Positions 3,154-60,356 of a stretch of DNA of 64,000 nt are shown in pieces. How positions within the stretch are numbered: the first letter of the stretch is position 1; each line of letters begins with the position of its first letter. The notes under the pieces were generated by a model, which was given only the letters and a program-made list of their open reading frames with translations, was not told the DNA's origin and searched no databases. This DNA is from Kappaphycus alvarezii (Eukaryota; Rhodophyta; Florideophyceae; Gigartinales; Solieriaceae): positions 1 to 64,000 of the forward strand of contig NADL03000768.1 of the NCBI GenBank assembly GCA_002205965.3, read 5' to 3'. The position numbers and the translations under genes were made by a program.

Positions 3154-5913
3154 AAAAACACCCATTTTGGAGTCAGAATGTTTGAGGCCTCCAAACGTGG
3201 GACTAACTTCCATGTTTTGTTCCGAAGGATCGAGTCTCGCTCGGACTCGATGGCGGACTTCCAAAAGTCTGCGTCCGGTCCTGTCGCCGCGTGTCTGTAC
3301 GAGATGTTGACAACATTTGTAACGAGAGCCGTGTCATTAGGTGTCAAGGATATGTTTGATCTCCACCAAGCATTTGGGGCTCTTCGAATCCTTTCAGATC
3401 TCCGAGGAGCTACAGACACCTCAGGGGGCTCAGGGATTTCGTTATCTGTACCTACGTTTTCGGCGACCGTCGGGTCGTTTCCAACATTAGCCTGGTCATT
3501 CCATTGTCCCTGAATATCTTGTCTCGAAGATGCAGTTATTTCGACTGTGTCCGGTGTAGGAAGCCGGACTTGAGCATCCTGTTCAACGCCGGAACTTACA
3601 AGATCCTCATCGGAGCTAATTGCGAGATACTCATCTGATTCTTTCTCATTTATTTCAGACTGGCAGGTTTCGCTCTCACTGAATCTGACATCTCTGGAAA
3701 CAACTTCCTTGTGTAATTCAGGATCCCACAGTTTGTAAGCTTTGCTGGCTTCCGCATATCCAAGCATAATTGCTTCCGGAGCTCGGTTGTCGAGCTTACT
3801 GAACTGACTTGCCGGGACGGTATACCAACATTTGCTTCCGAACGTACGAAGGTGCGACAAATTGGGCTTGCGACCGTACCATATATGATGCGAGGTCGTG
3901 AGGCTTGGAAGTGCGCGAGTTGTAACTCTGTTTCGGATGTATACAGCAGTCTCCAGAGCTTCGGCCCAGAACTGTTTTGGCAGACTCTTTGCATGTAGCA
4001 TTGACCGAACCAGATCCATCAGTGTTCGGTTCAGCCGCTCTGAAACACCATTCTGTTCAGGTGACTCCACTGCACTAAGCTCATGTTTTGTGCCGCGCTC
4101 GGCAAAGTAGTCCTTGAATGCAGTGGACATATATTCTTCCGCTCGATCTGAACGAAGAATGCCAATGCGACGCCCAGTATGGGCTTCGCTACGAGCTTGG
4201 AACAGTTTATATTTATCAAACACCTCTGACTTTCGCTGCATCATGTAGACGGTAACCCAGGAAGAGTGATCGTCCGTGAAGACCACAAAGTACCCCTCCA
4301 ACAGAAGAAACCTCCATAGGTCCACACACGTCACTGTGAACAATGTCTAACATCGCTTCAGCTCTACCAGTTGTGCGTTTCTTCGGCACTGCAGAACGAT
4401 GAGCCTTTCCATGAACGCATGAGGAGCTTATTTCGGATGTATTCGAGTCACTGATCTGCACGTCGTCCACAAAATTGTTCCTTACCATAGATGCAATGCC
4501 CTGCTTGCTTATATGAGCCATTCTCTCGTGCCGTGTCGAGAGTGTGGTGACTTTCGCACAGTACAAGGTATCATTTGGTATCTTCTGGACTATGTCGATA
4601 GCATAAAGAAGGCTATTGCACAGTAATTTACCAGTTGCTACAACTCTCCCATTCTTAGTCATCTGCAAAGCTTTGTTCTCAAATACAGTTTTGATCCCTT
4701 CTATGTCCGCTTTGCCTCCAGAGATGAGAGAATATTCGAAACTAGGAACGTGGACAACATCTCGCAGAAGGCACCGCTTTCGAGAACCATCCACTAGTAG
4801 AATCAGCTCCACGTCACCTCGCCCAGCAATCTTAGCCCGGTCTTTAGTTCCCATTTCGACTGAGGCTGATGAAAATTCGGTATAATTCGTGAAAACACTC
4901 CTATCGTATGTCATATGGGAAGAACATGCCGAATCTGCGTACCAGGAGGAAGTTCCGGCCGAAATCCCGGCCTGTTTAATTCGTGACATGAGGCAAAGAA
5001 TTTCATCATCAACTCTGTCCCCACTATCTGCTGAAGGATGAGAATCAGTCGAATCAAATACATTTGCACCTACGAACGCCTGCTGATCTCTTCTCGGGCG
5101 ATTTTTCTCGTTTCGATGATTATTAGATGCTCTGCCACTACGAGAACCGGATGCACGATAGCCCCTTGGAGCTTCCGGGCGCCTACCGTTCACATTTTTG
5201 CCCCAGCATCTGTCCGCGGTGTGACCAGAATGACCGCAGTTCGTACAGTGCAGCTGTCTAGCATTACCTCCGAAGTCATTCGGACGGGCATTGGAGATGA
5301 GCGCAGCATTGGATTTTGTCTTTTTTGACTCCCTCATTTGAGCACGCTCCTCTTCCCGCAAAAACCGGCTCTTCACAAATTCCAAAGTAAACACCCTGTC
5401 CTCATTGCCGAGCGCATCCGAGGCAACGATGAGATTGTCGAACCGGGATGGAAATCCGTTAAGCACAGCCATGGCTATCTCGTTGTCATTAATAGTCACA
5501 TCCATGGATTTCAGGGTCGCTGCCAACTGTGTTACACGGTTAACGTACTGCAAGACTCTCTCGTTACCATCCATAGCCGCAGTGTAAAACCGACGTCGAG
5601 CCGCAAGTTTATTGAGGAGCGTGTGCCTCTCAAACGTGTTGAGAATAATAGTCCACATGTCCTTTGCAGTTGCCGCAGTGCGCACATGCTCAAGGTGCTC
5701 ATCAGAAAGGGACAACCCGATGAGCGCCCGTGCCTTGTGGTCGGCCCGAGTCCATGATTTGAGAGCTCCATCATCCGATTCCTCAGGCGGATCATCCACA
5801 TTGTAGTCATCAAGCTCCCGGAGAGCGAGAAGAAGCTGCACCTTCTGCTTCCAAACATGGAAATTATTGTTGGTGAGCTATTCAATTCGAACTCCGCCTC
5901 CGCCATCGTCCAT
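3154..5913 (-). mobile_element. Copia-A1 gag-pol fossil (gag, protease, integrase, start of RT)
   Basis: Ty1/copia polyprotein remains on the minus strand. Gag (UBN2-like, about 5,913-5,250) is followed by a CCHC knuckle (CTNCGHSGHTADRC, near 5,220), a protease with the active-site stretch YADSACSSHMT (near 4,930) and an integrase. The integrase shows its HHCC zinc region (HERMAH, CSSCVHGKAH) and core motifs such as DVCGPM and RLNRTLMDLV. The linker rich in Ser/Glu/Asp and the beginning of the reverse transcriptase (KTWKLVPR) come last. The element is broken at several places and ends against the C repeat. Its 5' repeat is at 7,460-8,704. Confidence 0.85.
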
Positions 5914-13197: not shown

Positions 13198-14706
13198 GTC
13201 TAGCAAATGTTTGGCCCTCCCTCCAGAGCGCTGTTTAGGAATCACAGCACGAGTTGCTTTTCCTAACACACACGCATCACATGTCACAGATTCACAGTCA
13301 GAAGATGAGCTAGCGTCTCTTTTCATATCTGAAGAGGAGATATGAAGTCCACTTACGACGTTCTTACGAGCCATGGACAATATTCCTTGAGTATGAACGT
13401 GGGCCAATCTTTCATGCCATGTCTTCAAAGAGGCTTTGTGCGCTGAATGAACCTCGTTACATGTGTCAAGCACATACAGCTCTCCTCGACTTGTGGCAGT
13501 AGCCACGATGCAGTCACTCCTCTTCACAGTGCACTTGTCACGAACGAACTCAACGTCAAATCCATTATCGACCATCTTACGTACAGAAATTAAGGAAAAA
13601 GCAAAGCTTGGAACGTGCAGCAAATTGTTGAGCTTGCATTACTTTTGAACTCCGTTCACTACAAGCGTAATGAGGACGGTCCCGACTCCAGCTACTATTG
13701 CACACGCTTTTGTTCCCATTTCTACGCGGCTGTTTGAGACCTCCCTGTAGTCGGAGAATAGTCTCCTGTCAAATGTCATGTGCGCGGAGCATCCAGAGTC
13801 GATAAGCCAAGTGTTTGCCGTTATGTTGATACCAGAGTTATCTACCTTGTTCATCAGACATATGTACTCGACTTCATTAATTTCCAGATCTTCTTTCTCT
13901 TGAGCAATCATCGCAGTAGGCTCCTGTGACTGTCTACGTAGGAACCGGTCAGGTGGCGGTGGTCGCCTTCCGTTGATGTCCCTTCCCCAGCAGCGGGCAG
14001 CGGAGTGTCCATTGTGACCACAGTTGGTGCATGTCAAAGTCAAAACACGCCTTGCCTCAGGGATCTGCACAATAAGAGCAGAAATTTGCGGATTCTGCCT
14101 CCTAGTAAGCTTCATCGATGCACGTTGCTCCTCTTGGAGCAGGCGACGTTTTACATATTCTACTCCGAACGTGTTATCTTCGGATCCAAGAGCGTCAAGC
14201 GCTACAATGAGATTTTGAAACCTCTGCGGAAGACCATTGAGAACTTTCATAGCCATTTCCTTGTCATCAATGATGACTCCCATTGACTTTAAGCGAGCTG
14301 CTAGGTGTCGCACACGTCCCATGTACGGCAAAACTTTCTTATTGTCTAGCATGGTGACCGTGTAGAAGTCTATCCGGGCAGCCAGCTTATTTAGTAATGT
14401 GTGGCGCTCAAAAACTTCCAAGATGGCGTCCCACATTTCTTTGGCTGTGACAGCATCTCTCACATGATCCAAGTGATCATCAGACAGCGACAGGCCGATG
14501 ATGGCCCGGGCCTTTCGATCCCCTTGCTTCCATGCCTTGTAAGTGGAAGATTGTTCATCTTCAGGAACGGTGCCATCAGTAATGTACTGTTCCACATCGC
14601 GAAGGGCCAACAGGAGCTGAATCTTCTGTTTCCACACGTAGAAATTGGTATCCGTGAGCATTTCGATCTTCATAGATCCTCCTCCTTGATCTTCTCCGCT
14701 ACTCAT
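13198..14706 (-). mobile_element. Copia-B 5' half: gag, protease, integrase start
   Basis: Minus-strand start of a B polyprotein. Gag opens at 14,706 after a 0.9-kb leader and shows the UBN2-like pattern (YVWKQKIQLLLALRD, FERHTLLNKLAA). A CCHC knuckle follows (CTNCGHNGHSAARC, near 14,020), then the protease site WLIDSGCSAHMTFD (near 13,800) and the integrase zinc region (WHERLAH, CDACVLGKA). It stops at the B repeat end at 13,197. The upstream leader, primer site and LTR (14,707-16,410) belong to it. Broken. Confidence 0.85.
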
Positions 14707-22988: not shown

Positions 22989-25900
22989 CTCCCCCTCGCT
23001 CACATTGTTTTGCCATTAGTTCATGCTCCCCTTACTACCCATCACAATCATTCTAACAATTTTTGTCATCTGAACTCGCCCTAGTGGTTTTGTCAAGGCG
23101 TCAGCAACATTTTCAGTTGTTTGCACGTACTCCAAGTCCACCTTTTTACGGACAACTGCATCTCTTACAAAGTGGTATGCAATATCAATGTGCTTGTTGC
23201 ATCTGTTGGTTCTCTCGTTTCGAGTGGGCTCCATAGCCCCCTGATTATCACTGTATATTGTAATAGCATGATCAATTCCAAGTTTTTTCATGCCCAGCGA
23301 TATCCAGGTTTCAAGGATGTCCCGGACGACACATCTCAGCCATATTGCTTCTTTACTTGCTGCAGTTAACGAAATGTATTCGGCCTCACATGACGAAGCT
23401 GCGACAACCGTTTGCTTTCGCGAGCACCACCTTACCCCACTTCCAGCCATGCGAAACACGAAACCACTCGTTGATTTGCGATCGGACGCATCTCCGGCCC
23501 AATCCGAGTCACAGTATGCAGACAAGCCTAGATCAGCATTCCCTCGGAACACAAGACCTAAATCTTTGGTCCAAGGGAGATACCTTAACACTCTTTTTAC
23601 TGCTAACCAATGCTTCTCTCTTGGTTCTTCGCAGAAACGTGCAAGTTTGCCCACCGCATAAGATATATCAGGTCGTGTTCCAACAGACAAATACATCAGA
23701 GCTCCAATGGCGCTCCTGCATGGAGCATCTGTCCGAGAATCACTACCCGTATCTCCCGACCGATTCAAGTTCAACTCGTCAGTGTTTAAATTCATACGAG
23801 TTGGAATGGGTCTACAATTCAGCATTCCAAATCGCTCTGGAACGCTGTCTACAAATGGTGTCAGGGATAAAAACAAGGAGCGTTCGGATCTCCGGCGTGA
23901 TATTTCAAGCCCAACAACCATTCTCGTTTCGCCCAAACCTTTCATTTCAAAACATTGGTTCAGCTCCCCCTTCATCCATGCAATCGCCTCCATGTTGTTT
24001 CCTGCAAACAGCAAGTCATCAATATACAGGAGGATAATCATGATTGAGTCGGAGGTCAGGTCAAATTTTACATAAACACAGGGATCATTAGTGCTACTAT
24101 TGAATTTGAGCCCATCAACAAGAAAATGATCGATTTTCTGGTGCCACCGCCTATGTGCCTGTTTCAAACCATACAAGGCCTTCAGAAATTCGCAGACATG
24201 ATTTGGTTTCGAGGCATCCTTAAATCCATTAGGCTGGTCCATGTACACGTCCTCCTCCACATCACCGTTCAGAAATGGCGTCTTAACATCCCTTTGATGC
24301 AGCTCCAGGTCCTGATGTGCGAAAAGTGCCAAAAGCACCCGAATTGCCGTGAGCTTCACGACAGGGGCGTACGTCTCATTATAATCGACCCCTTTCACCT
24401 GTTGGAAACCACGAGCGACAAGACGCGCCTTCGATTTTCGGGAAAAGCCTCCGTTGGAGTCCTGGGCATCTTTTATTGCAAACACCCATTATGGAGTCAG
24501 AATGTTTGAGGCCTCCAAACGTGGGACTAACTTCCATGTTTTGTCCCAAAGGATCGAGTCTCGCTCGGACTCGATGGCGGACTTCCAAAAGTCTGCGTCC
24601 GGTCCTGTCGCCGCGTGTCGGTACGAGATGTTGACAACATTTGTAACGAGAGCCGTGTCATTAGGTGTCAAGGATATGTTTGATCTCCACCAAGCATTTG
24701 GGGCTCATCGAATCCTTTTAGATCTTATTTATATTCTCCCCCTCGATCTGAACGAAGAATGCCAATGCGACGCCCAGTATGGGCTTCGCTACGAGCTTGG
24801 AACAGTTTATATTTATCAAAGACCTCTGACTTTCGCTGCATCATGTAGACGGTAACCCAGGAAGAGTGATCGTCCGTGAAGGTCACAAAGTATCGTGCCC
24901 CTCCAACAGAAGAAACCTCCATAGGTCCACACACGTCACTGTGAACAAGGTCTAACATCGCTTCAGCTCTACCAGTCGTGCGTTCCTTCGGCACTGCAGA
25001 ACGATGAGCCTTTCCATGAACGCATGAGGAGCATATTTCGGATGTATTCGAGTCACTGATCTGCACGCCATCCACAACATTGTTCCTTACCATAGATGCA
25101 ATGTCCTACTTGCTTATATAAGCCATGCTTATATAAGCCATTCTCTCGTGCCATAACGAGAGTGTGGTGACTTTTGCAGAGTACAAGGTATCATTTGGTA
25201 TCTTCTGGACTATGTCGATAGCATAAAGAAGGCTATTGTACAGCATTTTTCCAGTTGCGACAACTCTCTCATTCTTAGTCATCTGCAAAGATTTGTTCCC
25301 AAATACTGTTTTGATCCCTTCTATGTCCGGTTTGCCTACAGAGATGAGAGAGTATTCGAAAATAGGAACGTGGACAACATCTCGCAGAATGCACCGCTTT
25401 CGAGATCCATCCACTAGAAGGGTCAGCTCCACGTCACCTCGCCCAGCAATTTTAGCCCGGGCTTTAGTTCCCATTTCGACTGAGGCTGCAGAAAATTCGG
25501 TATAATTCGTGAAAACACTCCTATCGTAAGTCATATGGGAAGTACATGCGGAATCTGCGTACCAGGAGGAAGTTCCGGCCGAAATCCCGGCCTGTTTAAT
25601 TCGTGACATGAGGCAAACAATTTCATCATCTACGCTGTCCCCACTATCAGCTGAAGGATGAGAATCAGTCGAATCAAATACATTTGCACCTACGAACGCC
25701 TGCTGATCTCCTCTTGGGCGATTTTTCTCGTTTCAATGATTATTAGATGCTCTGCCACTACGAGAACCGGATGCACGATAGCCCCTTGGAGCTTCCGGGC
25801 GCCTACCGTTCACATCTTTGCCCCAGCATATGTCCGCGGTGTGACCAGAATGACCGCAGTTCGCACAGTGCAGCTGTCTAGCATTACCTCCGAAGTCATT

Positions 25901-32767: not shown

Positions 32768-33287
32768 CATGCAGCCAGTCCAGGCAAATATAGGATAAAT
32801 ATAGAAACCACTGTTTACTTGTACACGTACGACACCTATAATACTGTACACGTACGACAGAGAAGAGACAGTATACGTATGCCATATAGGAGACAGTACA
32901 CGTATGACACACTGGGCACAGTACTTCGAGCCTAGAATAGAGACAAACCATCAACCAACCATAACATGGCAAGTGTCAGAATGCTCCACAATGATCAGCT
33001 CAGATATCGCCACTTGGAGCGATTTGAGTGGTATGGAGGCGTATCCAGCAGCCAATCAGACGGCAGAATACCAAGTGGTTTGAAAAATGGCAAAATGCGC
33101 CGTGATTTTGAGCTGCCCGAAAATGGGCTTTCTTCCCAGGCAACTTTCAATTTGGCCCACTTGACACGTGTATTATTTTTTTACACATAAGAGGGGTGCA
33201 GCTCGCATTTTCGTGCTACAAGTGTACACATGTCCAGGTGGCAACTAAAAACCATGGGATCGCATGCATTCTATCATTTTTTCAACA
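32768..33287 (-). repeat. 3' LTR of copia-A2, partial, copy 2
   Basis: Second copy of 22,469-22,988, next to the polypurine tract GAGGGGGAG on the minus strand. Confidence 0.8.
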
Positions 33288-36200
33288 CTCCCCCTCGCTC
33301 ACATTGTTTTGCCATTAGTTCATGCTCCCCCTTACTACCCATCACAATCATTCTAACAATTTTTGTCATCTGAACTCGCCCTAGTGGTTTTGTCAAGGCG
33401 TCAGCAACATTTTCAGTTGTTGGCACGTACTCCAAGTCCACCTTTTTACGGACAACTGCATCTCTTACAAAGTGGTATGCAATATCAATGTGCTTGTTGC
33501 GTCTGTTGGTGCTCTCGTTTCGAGTGGGCTCCATAGCCCCCTGATTATCACTGTATATTGTAATAGCATGATCAATTCCAAGTTTTTTCATGCCCAGCGA
33601 TATCCAGGTTTCAAGGATGTCCCGGACGACACATCTCAGCCATATTGCTTCTTTACTTGCTGCAGTTAACGAAATGTATTCGGCCTCACATGACGAAGCT
33701 GCGACAACCGTTTGCTTTCGCGAGCACCAACTTACCCCACTTCCAGCCATGCGAAACACGAAACCACTCGTTGATTTGCGATCGGACGCATCTCCGGCCC
33801 AATCCGAGTCACAGTATGCAGACAAGCCTAGATCAGCATTCCCTCGGAACACAAGACCTAAATCTTTGGTCCAAGGGAGATACCTTAACACTCTTTTTAC
33901 TGCTAACCAATGCTTCTCTCTTGGTTCTTCGCAGAAACGTGCAAGTTTGCCCACCGCATAAGATATATCAGGTCGTGTTCCAACAGACAAATACATCAGA
34001 GCTCCAATGGCGCTCCTGCATGGAGCATCTGTCCGAGAATCACTACCCGTATCTCCCGACCGATTCAAGTTCAACTCGTCAGTGTTTAAATTCATACGAG
34101 TTGGAATGGGTCTACAATTCAGCATTCCAAATCGCTCTGGAACGCTGTCTACAAATGGTGTCAGGGATAAAAACAAGGAGCGTTCGGATCTCCGGCGTGA
34201 TATTTCAAGCCCAACAACCATTCTCGTTTCGCCCAAACCTTTCATTTCAAAACATTGGTTCAGCTCCCCCTTCATCCATGCAATCGCCTCCATGTTGTTT
34301 CCTGCAAACAGCAAGTCATCAATATACAGGAGGATAATCATGATTGAGTCGGAGGTCAGGTCAAATTTTACATAAACACAGGGATCATTAGTGCTACTAT
34401 TGAATTTGAGCCCATCAACAAGAAAATGATCGATTTTCTGGTGCCACCGCCTATGTGCCTGTTTCAAACCATACAAGGCCTTCAGAAATTCGCAGACATG
34501 ATTTGGTTTCGAGGCATCCTTAAATCCATTAGGCTGGTCCATGTACACGTCCTCCTCCACATCACCGTTCAGAAATGGCGTCTTAACATCCCTTTGATGC
34601 AGCTCCAGGTCCTGATGTGCGAAAAGTGCCAAAAGCACCCGAATTGCCGTGAGCTTCACGACAGGGGCGTACGTCTCATTATAATCGACCCCTTTCACCT
34701 GTTGGAAACCACGAGCGACAAGACGCGCCTTCGATTTTCGGGAAAAGCCTCCGTTGGAGTCCTGGGCATCTTTTATTGCAAACACCCATTATGGAGTCAG
34801 AATGTTTGAGGCCTCCAAACGTGGGACTAACTTCCATGTTTTGTCCCAAAGGATCGAGTCTCGCTCGGACTCGATGGCGGACTTCCAAAAGTCTGCGTCC
34901 GGTCCTGTCGCCGCGTGTCGGTACGAGATGTTGACAACATTTGTAACGAGAGCCGTGTCATTAGGTGTCAAGGATATGTTTGATCTCCACCAAGCATTTG
35001 GGGCTCATCGAATCCTTTTAGATCTTATTTATATTCTCCCCCTCGATCTGAACGAAGAATGCCAATGCGACGCCCAGTATGGGCTTCGCTACGAGCTTGG
35101 AACAGTTTATATTTATCAAAGACCTCTGACTTTCGCTGCATCATGTAGACGGTAACCCAGGAAGAGTGATCGTCCGTGAAGGTCACAAAGTATCGTGCCC
35201 CTCCAACAGAAGAAACCTCCATAGGTCCACACACGTCACTGTGAACAAGGTCTAACATCGCTTCAGCTCTACCAGTCGTGCGTTCCTTCGGCACTGCAGA
35301 ACGATGAGCCTTTCCATGAACGCATGAGGAGCATATTTCGGATGTATTCGAGTCACTGATCTGCACGCCATCCACAACATTGTTCCTTACCATAGATGCA
35401 ATGCCCTACTTGCTTATATAAGCCATGCTTATATAAGCCATTCTCTCGTGCCATAACGAGAGTGTGGTGACTTTTGCAGAGTACAAGGTATCATTTGGTA
35501 TCTTCTGGACTATGTCGATAGCATAAAGAAGGCTATTGTACAGCATTTTTCCAGTTGCGACAACTCTCTCATTCTTAGTCATCTGCAAAGATTTGTTCCC
35601 AAATACTGTTTTGATCCCTTCTATGTCCGGTTTGCCTACAGAGATGAGAGAGTATTCGAAAATAGGAACGTGGACAACATCTCGCAGAATGCACCGCTTT
35701 CGAGATCCATCCACTAGAAGGGTCAGCTCCACGTCACCTCGCCCAGCAATTTTAGCCCGGGCTTTAGTTCCCATTTCGACTGAGGCTGCAGAAAATTCGG
35801 TATAATTCGTGAAAACACTCCTATCGTAAGTCATATGGGAAGTACATGCGGAATCTGCGTACCAGGAGGAAGTTCCGGCCGAAATCCCGGCCTGTTTAAT
35901 TCGTGACATGAGGCAAACAATTTCATCATCTACGCTGTCCCCACTATCAGCTGAAGGATGAGAATCAGTCGAATCAAATACATTTGCACCTACGAACGCC
36001 TGCTGATCTCCTCTTGGGCGATTTTTCTCGTTTCAATGATTATTAGATGCTCTGCCACTACGAGAACCGGATGCACGATAGCCCCTTGGAGCTTCCGGGC
36101 GCCTACCGTTCACATCTTTGCCCCAGCATATGTCCGCGGTGTGACCAGAATGACCGCAGTTCGCACAGTGCAGCTGTCTAGCATTACCTCCGAAGTCATT

Positions 36201-47003: not shown

Positions 47004-50000
47004 ATGCCTCAAATGACTTCCTCAGAAACCCGCGAAAGGTCCACGCAAGCCACGTCCCTCCCTACGGTTTACGATGCATTGCACAGCCCGCTAAGGCCTT
47101 CTGACATCTTCGACCGCATACCCGCAAACTGCATGCACAGCCTCGCCATATTACTCATACGGCTTTTCCGCGCTGCAGCAAACGCACGGAATGCCGATGC
47201 AGTCCGCGCCATCCTCCTCCGGATACACCTTCCTCCTACTGCAGTTCTGCGACGCTTAATGCGTGGGGAAGCCGGATGGCGGTCTCAAATAAGGCAAAGC
47301 CAAAGACTTCGCGAACGCATCCGCCGTGCCAACGCTGGCGAATGGAATGAACTTTGGACAGAAGCAATTCAAGCCCACAAGACCAGAGAAGAGAGAATCT
47401 TTAGGCGTCGCCACCAGCAGACCGACAGTAGGCACGACCCGAAGTTTCGCCGAGCATCCTATTTGGCTGCAGACGCGCAATACGGACGTACCATGCGCAC
47501 GCTACATCGGTCGCGCATCGCCGACGTGCGAGACCCGCAGGTTATAGAACGTCTGCAAGAGCTGCACCCAGCACCGCAGTCTCCGGTAACAGCCATCCAA
47601 GCGAGAGACCTTCCGCTCCCGATCGACATCACTGAAGAGGCGGTTCTGCGCGCTGTCCGACGCCTTAACCCAAACTCCACCCCGGGCCCGGACAGAATGT
47701 CCCCGCGGCTCCTTCGTTTGCAGGCCAACACAACCGTGACTCCCGAAGCAGGAGGGGCAGGCATCTCGGTGCTAACTCCTGTTGTGACGAGATTAGCCCA
47801 GGGGGACCTTCCGGACGACACAATTCCTTTGATCTCCTCTGCGACGCTGCTGCCCATCTAACCGCGGCCAGATAAGATTCGCCCCATTGCCATTGGGACG
47901 GCCCTGAGGATACTTGTAACAAAGGTGCTTCTACCACAAGCACTGGAAGACACGAGAGAATATCTCACACCCCTGCAAGTGGCCAATGGCGTGCCCTGCG
48001 GACTAGATTCCACTGTGCACGAAGCACGGAGATTGGTACAGTGCCAGGGCAACAAGGAAGAGTGCGCACTAGTGTCCGTGGATGCACATAATGCCTTCAA
48101 TCGGTTCTCCAGACAGTGCATGATAAACTTGCTGCCGACCAAGGTACCGTCGCTATGTCGTTTTCTGAACATAGTGTACGCTTGCAACAAGCCTTCGCTA
48201 ATTCTGCCTCTAGCGTATGCACAATACATCCCTAGCCAAGAAGGGATGCAACAAGGGGACCCGGCAAGTATGCTTATGTTCTCCCTTGTAGTGCATCCAT
48301 TAGCAACAGAAATTGCCGGGCGAACACAGCTCAGTCTACACAGATGGTATGCCGGTGACTGCACTCTCATAGGCACTCATACTGAGCTCGACAAAGCAAT
48401 CCAGATCCTCAGTGCCAGGGGACACGATCACGGATTGCATTTGAACCCGGCGAAAACACGTCTATTCTGGCCGCGCCAGCCTGGCAACCGGACATCGCCA
48501 CCATTGTACCGCTTCCCTAGAGATAACTTTTCCACTGAAGGCATCGACCTCCTCGGCGCCCCGATTGGATCGCCCCAATTCAAGGACCACCTTCTCAATG
48601 AGAAAATCAGCGGCTGTAAGAACACTTTATCGCTGATCGACGGTATTGGAGACGCTCGTACTCGGTTCCACAGTCACCGAGTATGTGCCCCGGCATGCAA
48701 GCTTCAACATGTGGTGAAGCTAACGCCGCCGGATGTGTCCACTGCCATTGCACTGAGATTTGATGAAGAACAGTTGGAATTCTACTCGCGCTCCAATAAT
48801 GTGCTGATGACCGGTGCAGTTCGACGGCAGGTGTCCTTACCTCTGCGATATGGCGGTCATGGCTTCACACCTGTGGTGACGCTCAATATCGCAGCGTATA
48901 CGGCGAGCATTATTGAAGCCGAGCAACTGCGATGCCCTGACGAGCCAGATGCGTTAGAACACCGTGAGTATAGGTGCGCGGAAGCGGATGGACACCTTCG
49001 GGACTTTGTACGACAGCTCCATGCATCCTTTCCGAACGAACAAGGCAGTCTTCCAGAAGCACTGACAGCGGCCAGCCTTGCTGCTAAGCCCGATAATCCA
49101 CACAACGTTATATATCGAGCCTGGTGCGAGTCGGTAAAGTCCTTCTGGAAGGATGATGAATGGGCAAGATTCCCCAACCCCGCAACGCACTCGGAAGAAG
49201 ATATTCGGCGAAGGATTCGCCGCCAAGCATACATGGAGAAGCCTGCAGCAGCATTACTCACTGCGCATCCTTCTGCTGTCAACCGAACGTACGACGAGAT
49301 GTGGACAGTAATGCTGCGTCGCATCTGGAAGTGCCCGTGTTTGATGACACTGCTCCGCTGCGGTGCGCGGAGTGCCACAGGCCCATGGACGTTCTAGGAG
49401 ACCATGTAGCAGACTTATGCAACAAAGTTCTCGGATGGACCAACCGTTACACAGTGGTGGTAAAGGTACTTGGCCGAGAGCTGTTCAAGGCAGCAGGAGT
49501 CAGCGTTCAATACGAAGTGAAGTACCTACTTCGTGGACTGAACGCGCGACCCCCAGACATTCTGGTGTACCCAAGGTCTGATGCAACAAACACATAGTCC
49601 CCTCTCCCAGTGGCGTATGACGTGACTGTATCATCCCCGTTCCAAGAGAGCTATAAGTCAATGGCAGCACGGGAAGCGCGAGCTGTTGCAAACGCAGCAG
49701 AAAAGCGGAAGAAGAGGGACTTAGCTACGAAAGTGGCAGCGATTCCAGGCGAGGCAATGCCAGGACGATCAAGGCTAGGATGGGATTTTGTACCACTAGC
49801 CTTCGACTTGTTAGGATCACCCTCTTTAGAAACATCCAAGGTTATAGAGACATACGCGGCAGCAGTAGCGTCTCGTAACGGATGCTCGACGGGAGGAGTA
49901 AAGACTCGCCTGTATCAGAAGCTTAGCCACTCAGTCTGGTCAACATGTGCAGCATCCGTGATTTGTCGCGCACCGCAACGAGCAGAGCTTAGTAACCCAA

Positions 50001-50701: not shown

Positions 50702-51853
50702 TTATTTGGAGACTAAATGCAAAACGGGTAACGAAGTCGCGGAGCTCCTGTTGAGGGGAGGAACCGCGACGGGAAGCAGGGAAGGAAGCAAGCCGGCGGA
50801 AAAAACACTTGCCGTCGCCGCCCAAGGCGCCATAGATATCAATCCCGACGGTGGAGAGGAATATATCGTTTTGGTTGCAGTAAGTGCCTTAATGACGATG
50901 TTTCTCGCGCTCTGCGAGTGTTGCGGCAGCGCCTGCGGTAACCGTACTTGGCGAAATGTGGCGGCGTGCGGAGGGGTGGGCAACTGTAACGTCGACGGCG
51001 ATATCAGTACTGTGAAGCCCGTATGCAGCGGGTATGTAAATGTCCATTCGTAGCGCGGGGGACTCCGAATGCCCAGATGAGTTGGCAACCTGGTAGAGGA
51101 GCGGATGTTCGACGAGGGCGACGATCCCAACTTCCTTGCAGTAGCGGGCAAGAACGTTGCGGAGGATGTGATCACGACGAGTCATTCCGTCTTCGTATTT
51201 GCAGGTCAACGCGTGTTGACCACTTGGATCTAGCGCGATGCCAAGACGTAGAGCCAGAGCGACTTTCCACGTAGAAGACGACATGTACGTGCCGCGGTGG
51301 GGGTGAGGAAGCGAAGAGAAAACAGACGACGCGGAGGATGTGCGCACGGAGAGAAGCCGTGCTCGGTCGTGGGCTGCCGCGGACGAGAACAACCTATCGG
51401 ACTTCGATAGCATGAGTTCTGTTGTGATCGCAGACTTGAGCCTTTCGCCCGGGACCGGCGATGAACAACGCTCGAAAAGAGCCGTAGCTGTAAGCGACGA
51501 AGACAGCTGCGGGTGGTGGGAGGATGAGAGCGAGATGGCGGACCGAGGGATCTCTTCCAAGTGGCGGTCCTGGGAAAGAGTGAGCAGGTCGGAGATAAGT
51601 CCAAAAGAATCAATTACAGATGCTGCGTAAGCAGCCTCGGTAATGTCTGAAGTTTGCAGGAGACCTAGACCGCCCATGGAGAAGGGGAGAGAGGCTTGGA
51701 GCCAGGCTCGCTCTGGACAGGGCAGCTGCAATTCGTGGAACGCTTCCCTATACTTCTAATCGAAGCTAGCGGCGAGTACCGCAGATTGAGTTGAAGGAAG
51801 CGAACGTAGCAGGTGCATGACCTTGGAGGCGTTCGCGCAGAAGCGGTGCCATA
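50702..51853 (-). pseudogene. LINE ORF2 fragment (minus)
   Basis: Minus-strand C-terminal part of a related LINE ORF2. Upstream end near 51,853 (WHRFCANASKVMHLLRSLP), then PCPERAWLQASLPFSMGGLGLLQTSDITEAAYAASVI, which aligns with PLRYGGHGFTPVVTLNIAAYTASII of the plus ORF2. Near 51,190 comes a zinc-like HALTCKYEDGMTRRDHILRN and then the nuclease blocks RMDIYIP and IAVDVTVAHPSA. An in-frame stop lies near 51,757 (after LAASFD), and the frame changes near 50,890. It is truncated at its 5' side by a short B-repeat piece. Confidence 0.7.
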
Positions 51854-52516: not shown

Positions 52517-52799
52517 TGTCGCGAGATTTTTGTATCGCGCGACGGTTAGGGTCGCTAGTTGATTGGCCCAGTATGTTCGTACAGTATACAGTACTACTGT
52601 ACACTGTACGAGCGGGAAGTGGGCTCGTACAGTGTACAGTAGTAGTGTACACTGTACTTGCACGTTCATGAGTAGAAATCCCAGACCGGCCGCCCTATAA
52701 GATGACGCGAGGGCGGCCGGAGTCCGGGGGAATGAGAGGTAGGTTCCGCTTGGCCGCGAGAGAGAGAAGAGGACAGAGTAAACAAAAACAAGCATTGCA
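52517..52799 (+). repeat. 5' LTR of gypsy-2
   Basis: 283 bases, TGTCGCG to GCATTGCA. It differs from the 3' copy (59,400-59,682) at about four positions. It contains a long hairpin (52,579-52,657) and a CCTATAAG promoter-like box near 52,694. Left flank ends in CAGT(T) and the right flank of the 3' copy begins CAGT(G), so a 4-base target repeat CAGT is visible. Confidence 0.9.
52579..52657. repeat. Long hairpin in the gypsy-2 LTR
   Basis: Two 35-base arms made of GTACAGT / ACTGTAC words pair with few mismatches around a 9-base loop GGGAAGTGG. The same structure is at 59,462-59,540 in the other LTR. Confidence 0.8.
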
Positions 52800-52815
52800 T
52801 GGTACCGCATCCAAG
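52800..52815 (+). other. Primer binding site of gypsy-2
   Basis: TGGTACCGCATCCAAG starts directly after the LTR end. Position and the TGG start are typical of a tRNA 3'-end primer site; I cannot name the tRNA. Confidence 0.6.
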
Positions 52816-52822
52816 GTTGACT

Positions 52823-53700
52823 ATGGACATGAACGATTCCCTTAGACCCCACGTTTCCTTCGACGGTTCCCCTTCTTCCGACGTCGCGCGCTTCCTTTTC
52901 GCGTACGAGAATGTAGTCATGCGCGGGAAAAACGACGAGGAAAAGGCGCTCCAGATCCTTTGCCACCTCGAGGGCGCGGCGTTTGAGCGTTACTATGAGG
53001 CTTTTGCGAGAGACGGAGCATTGGTGGAGGAGGCGAAGGACTATTCGATCGTTAAGGCCAAGCTCATTGAGGAGTTTGGGAAGACCCCGAAGCCGGAAGA
53101 AGAACTGCAGAAGGCTATAAACGCTAGGTTGGACCCGAAGGATGTAATGGGCTCCCTAGCGCAGTTGGACGCTCTATATAAGAGAGTTGGATTCAACGAT
53201 ACCGCCTCGTTCGGCCTGCTTCGGAAAGCAGTGGCAGAAGATCAAGATATGGCACAGTTCGTAATGTTTAGAGCCCCTTCGGACTATAAGGGGCTCAAGA
53301 AGGCAATCACGGACTTCGTAAGTGGAAAGAAGACGTTTTACTGAGAAGGAAGTCAAGGATCATCGTCGAGTGAAGCGCCGAAGAAGATCCTCCAGAGGCC
53401 AGATGCTCTTAGTTCCCAGCATCTGGAAAATAAGGTGTAGAAGTTGGCCGACCAATTCGCTGAACTATCGTTGCTTGTGAAGAAGCAATTCGAAGGAACG
53501 AAGCCGCCGGTGAAGACGGATGCGGATCACTTTTGCAGCTATTGCAACCAAAAGGGCCACGGAGCGAGCCGTTGTCCGCATAATCCGCATTGAGATACGC
53601 GCTGTACAATTTGTGGGAGAAGAGGACATTCCGAAGCAACATGCTGGTCCAAGAACCCCCGTGGTGATGACCAGCGGAGAGGAGTTGCTAGGGCCCGGTC
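52823..53700 (+). mobile_element. Gypsy-2 gag region
   Basis: The gag protein starts MDMNDSLRPHVSFDG at 52,823. It has a retrotransposon-gag capsid pattern (ARFLFAYENVVMRG, ALQILCHLEGAAFERYYEAF) and two CCHC knuckles near 53,530-53,640 (CSYCNQKGHGASRC and CTICGRRGHSEATC). Family resemblance to gypsy-1 gag is clear. The region has a few breaks. Confidence 0.8.
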
Positions 53701-53716
53701 TGAGTCTGGAGAAGAA

Positions 53717-54840
53717 TTGAAAATGAAGGAGCTGAAGGACGATGACAGGGTCGCCGTTCTTCAGGAATCTCGCAGAAATGACGTGGTTGCCGCTGCGAAG
53801 AGAAGAGCGGACGGGCAGGCCCTCCCGAAACAGCGGAGGGAAAACTTGATGAATCTGGATGCCATATTGAACAAGGCCCCTGCTAATCGTCCGCTGATGA
53901 TGGCTCCTGTCCCAAAGAAGAAGAATAAGAGAGTAAATCGCAAGTCGAAGAAGAAATCCGGTGGACTTCAGGATCATGTAGGTAAGTATAACGTGATCGC
54001 TGAACTGGCTTCCGCTGCCACAGGAATGAACTTCGGGCAACTGTTGCGCGGGGATGCCGAGGAGGCCAGAAGGGTTTTAAGGAAATTGTTATCCAAGAGG
54101 TTACCGGTTACACAGGCGTCGATGGTTAACTCTTCAGGAGCTCCACGCCGACTCAGGGTAGTAGCCGTGAAGTTGTACGGAACGGAGAATCATGCCCTTT
54201 TGGACACGGGTGCAGTTCCTAACCTGATCTCTTGGGACCTCTGCAAAAGGCTTGCCCTCACCCCGACGGAAACCGATCGTCAGGTGACAGTAGCAGACGG
54301 AACTGTCGCCGAGGTTCTTGGTTGTCTGAAAGGAGTCCCGGTGTCTTATGGGTCAACGGTTGTGCATCTTGAGTTCCTGGTTGTCAACAATGCCCCGTTT
54401 GACGTTATTGTTGGAAGCCCGACTTTGGAAGCCCTCCAGACGCGCATCGATTATGCACTCCAACACGTCACTTTGGTTATTGGAGATGAAGAGGTTGTGT
54501 TTCCATTCGTCAACGAGCCGTCCAGAGTCAATGTGGCTCATACGGATAGTGAGGACTTCACGTCCCCCAAAGGTTCAGACGATGAGGAATCTCTCCACCC
54601 TTTCTCGTCGTCTAGCGAAAGCGATGGTGGATCGGACACCGAACAAGACCTTGTCTTATCCATCATTAACAAGGAACCATACGAGCCTGATCTACCTCGC
54701 TCGACGAAGACTGAAGTTAAGAAGGAGGTAAAAGAGCAGGTGGACCGCTCGGCTCTATTGGCCTCGAAGAGAAGAATCAGGAGGAGCTGGCGAGAGCTCT
54801 CAAGGAAACGGATGTCATAGTTTGGGATATTCACGACCTG
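53717..54840 (+). mobile_element. Gypsy-2 protease region
   Basis: A basic stretch (KKKNKRVNRKSKKKSG) and ASAATGMNFGQLLRGDAEEARR precede the aspartic protease with HALLDTGAVPNLIS (near 54,195), RQVTVADGT and DVIVGSPTLEAL. An acidic Ser/Asp-rich linker leads to RT. Confidence 0.8.
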
Positions 54841-56262
54841 GAGCCTGCTAATGTGCCGGTGGTACATTCTTTCGAGTTGACGGACGAGGCACCGATACAT
54901 TCGAAGGCCCGCCGAATGCCGCCGAGGCATGACGAGGTCGTAAAGAAAGAAGTGAAGGAATTATTGGAAGCTGGAATCATTACGCCGTCTAGGTCCGCCT
55001 GGTCCTTTCCGGTCGTGATAGCCGCGAACAAAGACGGAAGGCACCGGTTCTGCGTCGATTACCGTCAGTTGAACAGGGTGATGAAGCCAGACCGCTGGCC
55101 GCTACCGAAAATAGAAGAAATCTTCGATGAACTCTCTGGCGCAGAGTTCTTCACAACGTTGGACCTTTACACAGGGTACTGGCAGGTTATGATGTCCGAG
55201 TCTTGCAAGGAAAAAACGACCTTTGCCTCTCGATATGGAACGTACAAGTTCGAGGTAATGCCGTTCGGACTCATGAATGCTCCAGCGACATTTCAAAGGA
55301 TGATGGATGATGTCCTTCGCGGGTTGCCGTTCGCTATGGTTTATGTGGACGACGTTGTCATCTTCTCGAGGACATTGGAGGAACACATAGCTCATTGCAA
55401 GGAAGTGTTCAGGAGGATAAAAGAATCGAAACTGAAGTTGAAGGTTACCAAGTGCAGCTTTGCTCAATCAGAAGTGAAGTTGCTTGGCCACATCGTTAAT
55501 TCAAGTTGTGTGAAGGTGGATCCCGACAAGATCAAAGATATTGTAGAAGCTCCGGTGCCGGAAAACGTGACCGTACTCAGGAGTTTTCTGGTACTCGCGG
55601 GGTACTACCGACGTTTCATAAGGGGGTTTACCGACAGCTCAGCAGTGTTGCACGCGGCGACGTCTGTTAAGAAGGCTTTCGAGTGGACTACGGAGATGCA
55701 AGAGGCCATCGAATACTTGGAGGGGAAACTGACTACCCCTCCAGTATTGGCGTTACCGGATTTCAATTCTCCTTTTCGAGTGGAAACAGACGCCTCTTCG
55801 GCAGCCCTTAGGGTTGTTCTCTCGCAGAAGAAAGAAGACGGGAAAATACATCCCATTCAGTTTGCTTCTCGAACGATGACGGACCAGGAGCGCCGCTACT
55901 CCACGAGCGAACGAGAAGCACTCGCCGTGGTTTTCGTTCTTAAGAATTTTAGAGTGTACCTCCTGTCTGAGAAACCCTTCGTTGTCTATACGGATCATCA
56001 ACCCTTCAAACCGCATTCAAGAAGAAAGATATTCACGGGCGGTTGGCAAGGTGGATGGATTTGATGGCGGAATACGACTTCGAGATCAAATATCGTCCAG
56101 GACTGGCAAATGGGGCTGCCAATTATCTCTCGAGAAGACCTAACAAGAAGGAAGAAAGAAGAAACGAGGAAAACATAACAGAAGGATTGGTGGCGACAGT
56201 GGATTGGGCAGACCCAAAGTTGCATGGTTTGGAACCGCACGTGCTAGATGTAGCACGGTTCT
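54841..56262 (+). mobile_element. Gypsy-2 reverse transcriptase and RNase H
   Basis: Ty3/gypsy RT with RFCVDYRQLN, FFTTLDLYTGYWQV, VMPFGLMNAPATFQRMMDDVL, MVYVDDVVIFS, LLGHIVNSS and LAGYYRRFIRGF. RNase H follows with FRVETDASSAALRVVLSQ, RRYSTSEREALAVVF and FVVYTDHQPF, then the end motif EIKYRPGLANGAANYLSR near 56,085-56,130. It looks close to whole, with about one break. Confidence 0.85.
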
Positions 56263-57523
56263 GAGCCGGAGAAATGGTTCAAGAATCCGACCCGAAGAAG
56301 AAGGTCACAGTCAGACGGAGCGCAAAAAGTTTCATGCTCTGGAACGATACCCTCTTTCGTCGTGAGAAGGACGGGCTCCGTGTATTGCCTCCGATCAATC
56401 AGCGCTCGGAGATTCTGGCCACCTTTCATGATGATATTGGCCACTGGGACGTCGGTTCGACAAGACAGTTCGTGAGGGACCGATCCTGGTGGCGTGGGGT
56501 GTACCGTGATGTCACCGAGTATGTGCAAGGCTGTGATGGGTGTCAGCATGCGAGAAGGTTGCCGACGTATCACTCGAGTTTGAGAGCTACCGTTACTGGA
56601 CTCTTTGAGACCTTCTCATGGACTTTGCTGGACCCTTCAAGCCTTCGAAGAATGGGAAGAGATTTGTTCTGATCGCTGTGGAACGTATGAAAGGGTGGCC
56701 CATAGCCTGGGCCACGACGGATTCTACGGCCGATACGGTGATGAGGTTCATCGAGGAAGAGATAATATCACCGTTCGGGCCGCCAAAGAGAATTGTCTCG
56801 GATAACGCGACTGCGTTTATGGCGGGAGCGGTACAAGAGTACATGAAAGAGAGGGGAGTCGAGTGGAAGGCGGTGCTTGCTTACGCGCCGATGGCAAACG
56901 GTCGCACGGAGCGGATGGTTGGAACTATCAAGCACGCGCTCAAAAGGGCTATCGTCCGCAGTGGGGTAGACTGGGCAGAGGCCCTCCCCAAAGTCTTATA
57001 AGTTTACCGCAGACGCGATCGAAGCGACGCCCCTTCCCCTTTTCGACTGATGTATGGAATTAATCCGAGGATGCTGTCCAGCGATTAGGTAGCATTTCTC
57101 AGTGACGCTGGCCCCCATCATCGGCTTATAGAGACCTTAGCCGATTCGAAAACGCGGGCCGGCGTTTTGGAGAAGACCAGCGAACCCCGCAAGACGAACG
57201 GAAAAGTCAGGAAGTTCGAAGTTGGGGATGAAGTATTGGTAGCGCACGGTGCGGCCTTCAATAAGAGGCGCAACTGGCCGGCTTTCGACTCTTATTACTA
57301 TGGACCGTGCAGGGTGACGAAGGCGAACCACCCTCGCTACGATTTACTTTCCTCCATCGGCTGCGTTACGAGGAAGGCAATTCACGCGCGCGCCGGATTG
57401 TCTCGTATCAGAAGAGATCGATCCATTTATTCAATTAAGGAAGAACAAGAAATTCGAGGACATGAGAGAAGAAGAGGCAATAATCGAGTAGATAGTAGCG
57501 CGATGAAAGCAAAGAACGCATGA
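56263..57523 (+). mobile_element. Gypsy-2 integrase
   Basis: An HHCC zinc region (HDDIGHWDVGSTRQFVRD, CDGCQHAR, near 56,430-56,560), the catalytic core with MDFAGPFKPS, VSDNATAFM and MANGRTERM (near 56,618-56,920), and a C-terminal part with KFEVGDEVLVAHG and YYYGPCRVTKANHPRYDL, i.e. a GPY/F-type module. No chromodomain was recognised after it. The region has a few breaks. Confidence 0.8.
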
Positions 57524-57596
57524 TAGAAGGCTAAGTACCGAAGAGGCACACAGAGAAACCGTAAACATTGTGAGTGAAGTCTTGAATCTTGAGCAA

Positions 57597-59018
57597 CTAG
57601 GGAGCGGCGCTGCTGCCTCCCTGGTTCTCCCTAATCCTCCTCTCGCGCTTCCGGACGGAAAAGGAGTTGCGACCAGGGCGCCGCTTCCTGCGCTTTCCTG
57701 GATTAGCGAGCGCCGCCTTCCGAACCTCTAGGATGGAAATGAATGTAGAATTTTTACCGACGCATTCACGGAGAGCTTGAGAGGAGAGCTCCAAGGCAAA
57801 GCGCTCACATGGGTCCCATATCTGGCCCGTCTCGGTGTTCATGGTGATGCAGTAATGGACACCATGGGAACTCTGGATCGTCACGACGTAGACACCAATA
57901 GGAAGAGCCAAGGTCTCCTTGATGCTCGGGTTGTAGATTTGATGTAGAATGAACGAGCGTGGAGGCGCATGCTTCTGGGCGTCCCTCAGGCTCCTGATGC
58001 GACCCCAACGTGTGACATCGGCCTTCAAAGCTCTATCGTTACCCTCATAGTACTCCAACCACTCTCGTGCGACGGGAGGGGCACCCAACTACCAAAGGGC
58101 GTTGGAGATTGAGAAACCGATGCATAAGTCAGTATCATCACGGAATACCACATCAGTGCGAGTAGAGGCTAAGAGAGAATCAGGGGAAGCACGGGGCTCC
58201 CTGGAACGAACTGATGACAACTGGAGATCACGACCAGGATGAAGTTGGCACCACCTGTGGAAGCGCGACACAGCACTGAGTCGACCTTCACACCCCAAAG
58301 AGAACCGGGCCTTACGAGAGATGGAGTGACCGTCTGGCTCTTGGGGGCCGTAGAATGCGAGAGTGTAGAGCAAAACCGAGTGCTCCTCTCCCGTTTCCGT
58401 GTCGACTGCTCTATAAGTCTGGGTGTCGTCGTACCAGCGGACCGTGCTGATAATCCAATCCTCTTCCCGTACTCCACCGTACACACGCCGATCGTGCTGG
58501 GCTTCCGTGAGACCGGGTTGAAAAGAATCCTCCCGAGTGACTTCGTCACCAACGCAGTGAATCACGTAATCTGTGATGTGGGTCCCGAAGAGATCGAGGA
58601 ACTCCTGACGAGAGACACGGTATGGATATATTCCACAGGCGTCGGTGTGGATGAAGAAAGGGTTCCGCTCCTCCCCGCCGAGGAAAAGCACCTTCCTGAT
58701 GTAGGAATGCTCCGACAATAACCGCATCAAATTCGCTCTAGCCACTGGAGGAGGCCCCTTTGCGCCGCGGGCGACTCGCGCCGCCTTAGTGGCGATATTC
58801 TTGCGAGGTGCACGGCCACCGGTGCTCAAACGAGCAAGCGACTTCGTTCGAGCCATTGGGAAAAAAGGAAAGGGAAGGAAGGAGTTGCGGAGGGTTAAGC
58901 GTTCAAGGCGGTGCAGAACGGGGGATAAATTAATGAACGGGGGAATTGCAGAGAAGAAAGATCGTTCAAGATAAGTTCTGGACGGTTGCGAATTTCGAGG
59001 GCAGCGGACGGAGCTCAA
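57597..59018 (-). mobile_element. Antisense accessory gene of gypsy-2: histone H3 tail mimic plus cysteine-peptidase-like part
   Basis: The reading region lies on the minus strand between integrase and 3' LTR, about 470 codons in two successive open stretches (about one break). I place the start at 58,856, where the protein reads MARTKSLARLSTGGRAPRK followed by NIATKAAR. This aligns without gaps to the histone H3 N-terminus, 20 of the first 26 tail residues identical. K4, S10, K18 and K23 are kept; positions 9, 14 and 27 are Leu, Arg and Val. There is no histone fold afterwards. The middle part (YPYRVSRQEFLDLFG, DWIISTVRWYDD, TETGEEHSVLLYTL) is unknown. Further on, DLCIGFSISNAL (Cys near 58,123) and SSHGVHYCITMN ... 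IWDP (His near 57,857, Asp near 57,815) resemble the Cys, His and Asp sites of papain-like peptidases such as Josephin or OTU types. The C-terminus is Lys/Arg-rich. Known: gypsy elements may carry antisense or 3' extra ORFs. Inferred: chromatin mimicry and peptidase role. Confidence 0.6.
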
Positions 59019-59399
59019 CAGTGCCTTGGGTTGGCGAAGACGAGAGGTTGAGATGAGGGAACGGAGATGAGGGAACGGATTGACAGAGTCTGGAGGATTT
59101 GGGACCTCCGGGCGTATACTGGCTGTTTGTCGGCACCTCAGTCGTTCGCCCGGAGAATGGTTGCACGTCGGGCGTATACTGGCCGTTTGGCGGCACCCCA
59201 GTCGTTGGCCCGACGGAAGTTGAAGGGTTGATTAGGCTGACAAGTTGAGTAGGGCGAGTAGGGACTGAGGTCGGTGGAATGGATGGTGTGCGAGTCGGGC
59301 ATGGGGTTGTGATGAGGGGGCCCCTAGGTGAGAGAGAAGCTGAGCTGGAAGCCCGTTATTATGATTGCGGCGCCCGTGGCCCACAGTCATTGGGGGGCG
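59019..59399 (-). promoter_or_regulatory. Region upstream of the antisense gene, with a tandem repeat
   Basis: No open gene. Two imperfect copies of a 47-base unit (59,108-59,154 and 59,167-59,214), built on GGGCGTATACTGGC and GTCGTT(C/G)GCCCG, lie upstream of the antisense gene. They may belong to its promoter. A polypurine tract (TTGGGGGGCG) directly before 59,400 serves the plus-strand element. Confidence 0.4.
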
Positions 59400-59682
59400 T
59401 GTCGCGCGATTTTTGTGTCGCGCGACGGTTAGGGTCGCTAGTTGATTGGCCCAGTATGTTCGTACAGTATACAGTACTACTGTACACTGTACGAGCGGGA
59501 AGTGGGCTCGTACAGTGTACAGTAGTAGTGTACACTGTACTTGCACGTTCATGAGTAGAAAACCCAGACCGGCCGCCCTATAAGATGACGCGAGGGCGGC
59601 CGGAGTCCGGGGGAATGAGAGGTAGGTTCCGCTTGGCCGCGAGAGAGAGAAGAGAACAGAGTAAACAAAAACAAGCATTGCA
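59400..59682 (+). repeat. 3' LTR of gypsy-2
   Basis: 283 bases, about 98.6% identical to the 5' LTR by eye, so the insertion is recent compared with everything else here. Followed by CAGT, the target repeat. Confidence 0.9.
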
Positions 59683-59962: not shown

Positions 59963-60356
59963 TGGTTTCCCGGTAATAACGTTCATTAAGGGCATTTTTA
60001 GAACTGCTTCCAAAGTTTTCAAATTTGTGTTAAACAGTTTGGCCCAATTCAAACATCAATACAGCACCTTATTTTGCAAACTCGTCGGAACCAAAATCCC
60101 TTGTGCCAAACTATAGGACTCAACCGGTCATGCATATTATAGAATCACATAACTGATTTTGGATACATCCGGACAGACTGTAATCATAATTAAAAACCTC
60201 ATACGTACTACGGAATCACATAACTGATTTTGGATGCAGCCGGATAGACCGTAATCATAATTAGAAACCTCAAACGTACAATAGAATAACATAACTGATT
60301 TTGGATGCAGCCGGACAGAGCGTAATCACAACTGGAACCCTCATACACAAAATAAG
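59963..60356 (-). repeat. LTR fragment of copia-C with minisatellite units
   Basis: Matches the C repeat around 9,745-10,130 (TTTAGAACTGCTTCCAAAG, AATACAGCACCTTATTTTG), followed by about three to four minisatellite units (60,120-60,345). Confidence 0.6.

Follow-up and report, generated by a model that had tools for sequence, protein, structure and literature searches.

A Ty3/gypsy-type retrotransposon family of Kappaphycus alvarezii carries an antisense gene that begins with a histone H3 tail mimic, a possible decoy for host H3-tail proteins

A stretch of 64,000 nucleotides from the red alga Kappaphycus alvarezii (contig NADL03000768.1, positions 1 to 64,000; the whole stretch was analysed and is called the window here) contains a Ty3/gypsy-type retrotransposon with long terminal repeats (LTRs), gypsy-2, whose opposite strand carries an accessory gene that begins with a close imitation of the histone H3 tail. 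The gene belongs to a family spread through the genome, its H3-like tail has been kept as protein between subfamilies that are otherwise highly diverged, and we propose that the tail may serve as a decoy for host proteins that bind H3.

The original prediction, made from the letters of the window, placed an open reading frame (ORF) with an H3-like start on the minus strand at 58089..58856, and an ORF of 255 amino acids was found there. It is the first part of the antisense gene, has homologues, and consists of the H3-like tail, a middle domain and a segment with a conserved cysteine. The tail spans 27 codons (58776..58856, minus strand; MARTKSLARLSTGGRAPRKNIATKAAR). Comparison with H3 bore out the predicted match of 20 of the 26 residues after the methionine, without a gap; the window tail scores 21/30 against H3, and H3 chains in PDB match the ORF with a best E-value of 4e-6. 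The substitutions described for this copy are likewise present: K9 is replaced by Leu, K14 by Arg and K27 by Val, with K4, S10, T11, R17, K18 and K23 unchanged. Among the 45 tails scoring at least 14, that of the window alone has Ser at position 5; a near copy (L002) reads MARTKQLARLSTGGRAPRK. We agree with the earlier view that this is not a histone gene: a histone fold was not seen after the tail, no Pfam family matched at E ≤ 1, and the best 60 of 145 PDB matches to the ORF all lie within residues 1-35. A protein database search with the same ORF gave 645 candidates, none at E ≤ 0.01.

The 255-residue ORF ends at an in-frame TAG (58091-58089) just after the conserved cysteine segment. Past this codon the antisense frame stays open to 57597, giving a gene of about 419 codons with one stop. 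Alignment with relatives identified the 163 amino acids encoded by 57597..58088 (minus strand) as the remaining C-terminal domain, which has conserved His and Asp positions and ends in a basic C-terminus. The window copy has Tyr at the conserved His position (57852-57854); other copies, L047 for example, have an open frame and His at those two sites.

We searched the K. alvarezii genome (336 Mb in 884 contigs) for relatives. The window ORF gave at least 157 matches, itself included; among the matches listed, the others range from 92% down to 33% identity, and the distant ones often align from residue 1. A query with canonical H3 gave 150 matches, of which 10 are host H3 or centromeric-type H3 and 140 are non-histone. 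All 140 start at residue 1 or 2, and 134 end by residue 58; the remaining six extend to residue 62-98 at 30-49% identity. An H4 query, run as a control on the same genome, found 3 H4 loci and no other match. These genome counts, like those from the body queries below, are lower bounds, as the candidates scored were 149 of 754 for the window ORF, 150 of 399 for H3, 125 of 866 for the body of L032 and 125 of 665 for that of L030.

We then examined twenty 10-kb loci, drawn from the window-ORF and H3 queries and chosen mostly for long open frames. Nineteen of the 20 have an integrase on the opposite strand, 1.5-2.9 kb downstream from the tail ATG, and 16 of the 20 are surrounded by an LTR-like repeat pair. 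Identity between their best reverse transcriptase (RT) matches and the window ranges from 36 to 77%, although the matches at the low end (L040, L047) could come from other elements. The antisense accessory gene is therefore a family in Ty3/gypsy-type elements and not a singleton, and the gypsy anatomy and the relatives across the genome both support the idea that a transposable-element (TE) accessory protein carries a genuine H3-tail mimic. Every element locus was sampled through its antisense ORF, so that the counts say nothing on the share of elements that carry it.

Forty-eight of the 68 loci (L001-L048) came from queries that included the tail, which biases their counts towards it; L049-L068, and the outside relative P0003 described below, came from tail-less queries. 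Body-only queries beginning at residue 41 gave at least 132 matches in the genome with the L032 body and at least 136 with the L030 body. We read the first 20 of the 132 regions at predicted gene starts, all from the L032-body query. Against H3, 17 of these 20 score at least 14/30 and 19 score at least 10, and in each of the 19 the tail lies within 9 bases of the predicted start. By comparison, the best of 400 shuffled stretches scored 9/30. A chance likeness to H3 of a basic N-terminus is scarcely credible given the shuffles and the clean H4 control, and we rejected it.

Two tail-less profiles also recovered three relatives outside the genome, P0001-P0003 (source 'lgn'). P0003 is an intact protein of 442 amino acids, and of its 95 matches in the K. 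alvarezii genome none exceeds 36% identity. It begins MGRTKQTAKKSTGGKRIPRSYLAEKSARF, which has 19 of 26 H3 residues and a single insertion of one residue; the Cys, His and Asp of the C-terminal domain are all present. P0002 is a fragment that does not reach the N-terminus. A search of viral contigs found no relative, although records of the same or a very near genome may be excluded there.

We asked how the tail has changed in comparison with its coding DNA. Among ten divergent subfamily representatives, residues 1-26 are on average 65% identical, and four-fold third bases at identical amino acids are 25% identical (n=540). Since 25% is the saturation value and the amino acids are kept, the tail is old, is no fresh scrap and is kept as protein; this codon comparison shows that it is maintained by selection at the protein level. 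The original prediction had allowed for a piece of the host H3 gene, and the same numbers speak against a recent one. More broadly, a mobilised scrap of host H3, or a DNA-level constraint from the sense strand, would explain the likeness without any protein function. TE capture of host sequence is common, and many copies here are decayed. However, between subfamilies synonymous sites are saturated and amino acids are kept, the tail at nucleotide level is only 0.56-0.71 identical to four host H3 genes, and the same N-terminus recurs in P0003 as well as in the ten divergent representatives. We consider this explanation highly improbable and rejected it on the saturated four-fold sites set against the kept amino acids.

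Between the body of L047 and those of other subfamilies, identity is 22-38%. When the window was compared with loci of other subfamilies, the tail was closer than the body in all ten measurable comparisons (54-85% versus 27-44%). The expectation that the tail is kept while the rest drifts thus holds between subfamilies, but it does not hold within that of the window, as set out below. Throughout, subfamilies nearest to that of the window are defined by body identity and not from a tree.

Conservation within the tail follows particular residues. A1, T3, Q5, A7, S10, G12, G13, P16, A24 and R26 are invariant in the ten representatives; R17, K23 and A25 are kept in 9 of 10, and T11 and A15 in 8 of 10. 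The other basic positions are K4 (kept in 6), K9 and R8 (5 each), K18 and R2 (4 each), and K14 and K27 (3 each). The conserved core is made up of the phospho-acceptors T3, S10 and T11, arginines 17 and 26, Lys23 and small residues. A wider position table was built from 48 tails including that of the window, after ten repeat loci had been dropped; it uses the 45 that score at least 14, a choice that favours H3-like residues. Over these 45 copies Lys is kept at position 4 in 26, at 9 in 19, at 14 in 11 and at 27 in 8. Position 9 is Leu in 19 copies, and position 27 is Val in 17, Met in 6 and Ile in 6 (29 of 45 together), with A24-A25-R26 mostly kept. Only in the window's and the nearest subfamilies are positions 9 and 27 typically hydrophobic; in the other subfamilies they are occupied by Lys, Arg or Ser. 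The suggestion that the tail can carry activating marks but not those at K9 and K27 consequently fails as a rule for the family: K9 and K27 persist in part of the 45 copies, and K4 itself in only 26. A general loss of K9 and K27 was also rejected on the ten representatives, in which K9 is present in 5, K27 in 3 and K4 in 6.

From these comparisons we propose that the antisense protein, of about 420-440 residues, starts with an H3 tail mimic (residues 1-26), continues into a middle domain specific to the family and has a Cys/His/Asp domain towards its C-terminus, and that its tail acts as a decoy for host H3-tail proteins, a reading to which we assign a probability of about 0.5. Loss of Met1 would expose the tail, and the displayed tail would be bound, in place of nucleosomes, by host proteins that recognise the unmodified H3 tail. 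One step further, in the window's and the nearest subfamilies Leu9 and Val, Met or Ile27 might act like H3K9M, H3K27M or EZHIP; were a silencing methyltransferase occupied in this manner, new insertions could escape silencing. Subfamilies with Lys, Arg or Ser at positions 9 and 27 would be plain competitors or substrates. For the window's and the nearest subfamilies, such a methyltransferase trap appears to fit better than a tail that simply cannot carry the mark.

Work on such traps gives this proposal a background, as far as the available text of each paper goes. PRC2 is inhibited when Met or Ile takes the place of K27, but not by acidic or basic residues there, and inhibition depends critically on the preceding Arg (PMC6513997); a pocket for Arg26 has been described (PMC4853476). 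H3K9M traps Clr4, and norleucine binds similarly (PMC5030085). A Lys-to-Met trap would call for a linear hydrophobic residue instead of the target Lys, preceded by Arg; of the 45 copies, 12 have Met or Ile at position 27, 17 have Val, as the window copy does, and 8 have Lys. The host itself was searched for the enzymes concerned. Two preSET_CXC matches lie over the cut-off in the K. alvarezii genome, and the same search matched 0 of 14 control genomes. We take preSET_CXC to be an EZH-type marker, and the two matches suggest that the host has an EZH-type enzyme. Pre-SET, of H3K9 methyltransferases, was not found in the K. alvarezii genome, by a search that is uninformative in that it matched 0 of 14 control genomes too.

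Several observations weigh against a decoy or limit its reach. In the subfamily of the window, the tail has not clearly changed more slowly than the body: tail and body identities are 19/26 (73%) and 79% for L043, 88% and 89% for L046, and 85% and 82% for L047. Nor is the tail always slower than RT, as L031 matches at 14 of 26 tail residues and 75% of RT. Five near copies in the window's subfamily have ratios of non-synonymous to synonymous change (pN/pS) of about 0.4-0.9 over 228 codons after the tail, which is nearly neutral and indicates that many copies are dead. Three of the 20 body-selected loci score below 14 (L059, L067, L068), and L067 has no visible tail; the outside relative P0001 covers the start of the body without a tail, and appears frame-shifted. 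Several subfamilies retain lysine at positions 9 and 27, which rules out a SET trap as the function shared by all, and the window's own Leu9 and Val27 fall outside the substitutions covered by the available text of the two trap studies (PMC6513997, PMC5030085). Finally, a pure decoy leaves the C-terminal domain unexplained.

This domain is the starting point for the main rival explanation. Rows that cover it share the motif D-x4-C-(I/M)-x2-(S/A/F), followed by G-(V/I)-Y...H-x(0-2)-C...D-x2-E, with the first D absent in L045. We liken the order of Cys, His and Asp to that of papain-like enzymes and C39 peptidases; a papain-like fold would fit this order and is an unproven lead. The protein might then be a papain-like cysteine protease that clips the host H3 tail to remove silencing marks, with its own tail serving as pro-segment or as a substrate in cis. 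Among the rows covering these residues the papain-like order holds, P0003 included, save in L034, which has Tyr in place of Cys, and in the window, where Tyr replaces His; the conserved core spans the whole tail with little dependence on lysines, as a substrate might. There is also a precedent in cathepsin L, a cysteine protease that clips H3 tails, according to the available text of PMC12269491. Against a protease, neither the body nor the C-terminal domain has a significant match in Pfam, NCBIfam, PHROGs or PDB, and we regard it as unlikely though worth keeping in sight. A second possibility is that the tail is an import or chaperone signal, through which H3-specific importins and chaperones would bring the protein into the nucleus, perhaps together with the integration complex. 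Arg17, Lys23 and Arg26 are among the best-kept residues, and a nuclear location has been reported for Grande gene23, which a plant gypsy element encodes as an antisense accessory protein (PMC7264820). However, a generic signal needs no T3, Q5, A7, S10, G12, G13 or P16, all kept in 10 of 10 representatives, and K14 and K18 vary freely; the C-terminus, moreover, is basic already. Import seems improbable to us as the main role of the tail. A broader version of the decoy, in which a trans-acting, antisense-expressed H3-tail protein would occupy host H3-tail enzymes (as a trap at 9 and/or 27 in the window's and the nearest subfamilies), possibly with an H3-clipping protease of its own, so that copies escape heterochromatin, is put forward only tentatively.

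The element around the gene has the parts expected of its class. gypsy-2 occupies 52517..59682 on the plus strand (7166 bp) and is bounded by direct repeats, the LTRs, that run from TGTCGCG to GCATTGCA. It was assigned to Ty3/gypsy (Metaviridae-type) from its LTR pair and the order protease, RT, RNase H, integrase. Its flanks read CAGTT and CAGTG, probably a 5-bp target duplication with one change. The 5' LTR (52517..52799, plus strand) and the 3' LTR (59400..59682, plus strand) are each 283 bp long and are identical at 279 of 283 positions. Directly after the 5' LTR comes TGGTACCGC, which starts with TGG and is a plausible primer-binding site; before the 3' LTR, the G-rich tract ATTGGGGGGCG is a plausible polypurine tract. 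Within each LTR, an inverted repeat of 35 bp (94% complementary; GTACAGTATACAGTACTACTGTACACTGTACGAGC and its complement) encloses a loop of 9 bp. Pol is encoded on the plus strand: an aspartic protease ORF at 53717..54820 (Pfam Asp_protease_2, E 3.2e-8), an RT and RNase H ORF at 54853..56064 (RVT_1, E 2.7e-33; RT_RNaseH_2, E 2.2e-32), and an integrase at 56274..57001 in two overlapping ORFs, with the zinc-binding part at 56274-56672 (Integrase_H2C2, E 1.4e-14) and the core at 56618-57001 (rve, E 2.3e-12). This split means that the integrase frame is broken in the window copy. A chromodomain was not found by Pfam among the eight ORFs of gypsy-2 scanned.

The antisense gene sits between the integrase and the 3' LTR, in the position and orientation known as aORF-3R. 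Between its ATG and the 3' LTR lie 543 bp (58857..59399, minus strand), room for an antisense promoter, for which this is a candidate place. The stretch holds two 44-bp direct repeats (59109-59152 and 59169-59212, 91% alike), upstream of the antisense ORF, each of which starts with CGGGC and ends with GCCCG; they may be regulatory units. The window copy is decayed, as seen from the in-frame stop in the antisense gene, the broken integrase frame and the Tyr in place of the conserved His.

Other features of the window and of the host H3 genes were recorded alongside. About 450 bp past gypsy-2, at 60128-60346, are three repeats with 71-bp spacing that are 81-86% alike. A further RT ORF lies at 47925-49397 (RVT_1, E 1.2e-11), and a minus-strand ORF at 50889-51731 has no Pfam match at E ≤ 0.01. 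Copia-type ORFs are present at 3147-5841, 13639-14706, 23016-24485 and 33274-34785 (Retrotran_gag_2, RVT_2, SH3_retrovirus); two copia RVT_2 ORFs have nearly equal scores, each with a 230-residue ORF on the opposite strand. Elsewhere in the genome, two very similar divergent H3 genes (G000:C660:372234-372670 and G000:C609:1093448-1093887) each match in two pieces and are probably centromeric H3 with an intron. In another H3 gene (L018, G000:C600:513959-514365) the tail and the rest are in different frames, with an apparent frameshift around residue 25. At locus L009, the H3 and H4 genes have a fungus-like appearance.

If the proposal is right, this would be the first TE family known to us to imitate a full histone tail. 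Its subfamilies would amount to a natural mutational record of the H3-tail residues that a partner needs (T3, Q5, A7, S10, G12, G13, P16, R17 and K23-R26, and not most of the acetyl and methyl lysines), and the role of gypsy antisense accessory genes would become answerable by simple peptide-binding and silencing assays. The claim that no such family had been described has stood up so far: literature searches over titles and abstract starts of open-licence texts found no TE that encodes an H3 tail, and Pfam, NCBIfam, PHROGs and PDB yielded no described family. Within the reach of these searches, the antisense protein family is previously undescribed.

The nearest counterparts in place are the aORF-3R genes of maize Grande (gene23), rice RIRE2, Silene Retand and fungal Boty, which have the same position and orientation between pol and the 3' LTR (PMC7264820). 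According to the available part of that review, aORF-3R proteins have no clear similarities to other proteins described, apart from PvRetro13, for which an SMC domain is named, and Retand, for which a transposase-28 domain is; unlike the gypsy-2 gene, and in a comparison by description only, none is mentioned there with a histone tail (PMC7264820). In the window's and the nearest subfamilies, the protein resembles the EZHIP, H3K27M and H3K9M traps as an H3-like peptide in which Arg26 is followed by an aliphatic residue where the target lysine would stand. It differs from them in that those are a host protein or histone mutations, whereas here a TE encodes the whole tail 1-26, with Lys, Arg or Ser in other subfamilies. 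Chromodomain-bearing gypsy elements (chromoviruses) also use chromatin recognition; they read H3, whereas the H3-tail elements would display it. Histone mimicry is known in viruses (influenza NS1 tail, SNAG domains). To our knowledge, the viral histone imitations known are either short motifs or whole histones with their fold. The gypsy-2 protein shares with viral histone mimics, and with viral histones (PMC9145170, available text), a histone imitation encoded by a parasite, but it differs from viral mimics in fusing a full-length tail to an unrelated protein within a retrotransposon.
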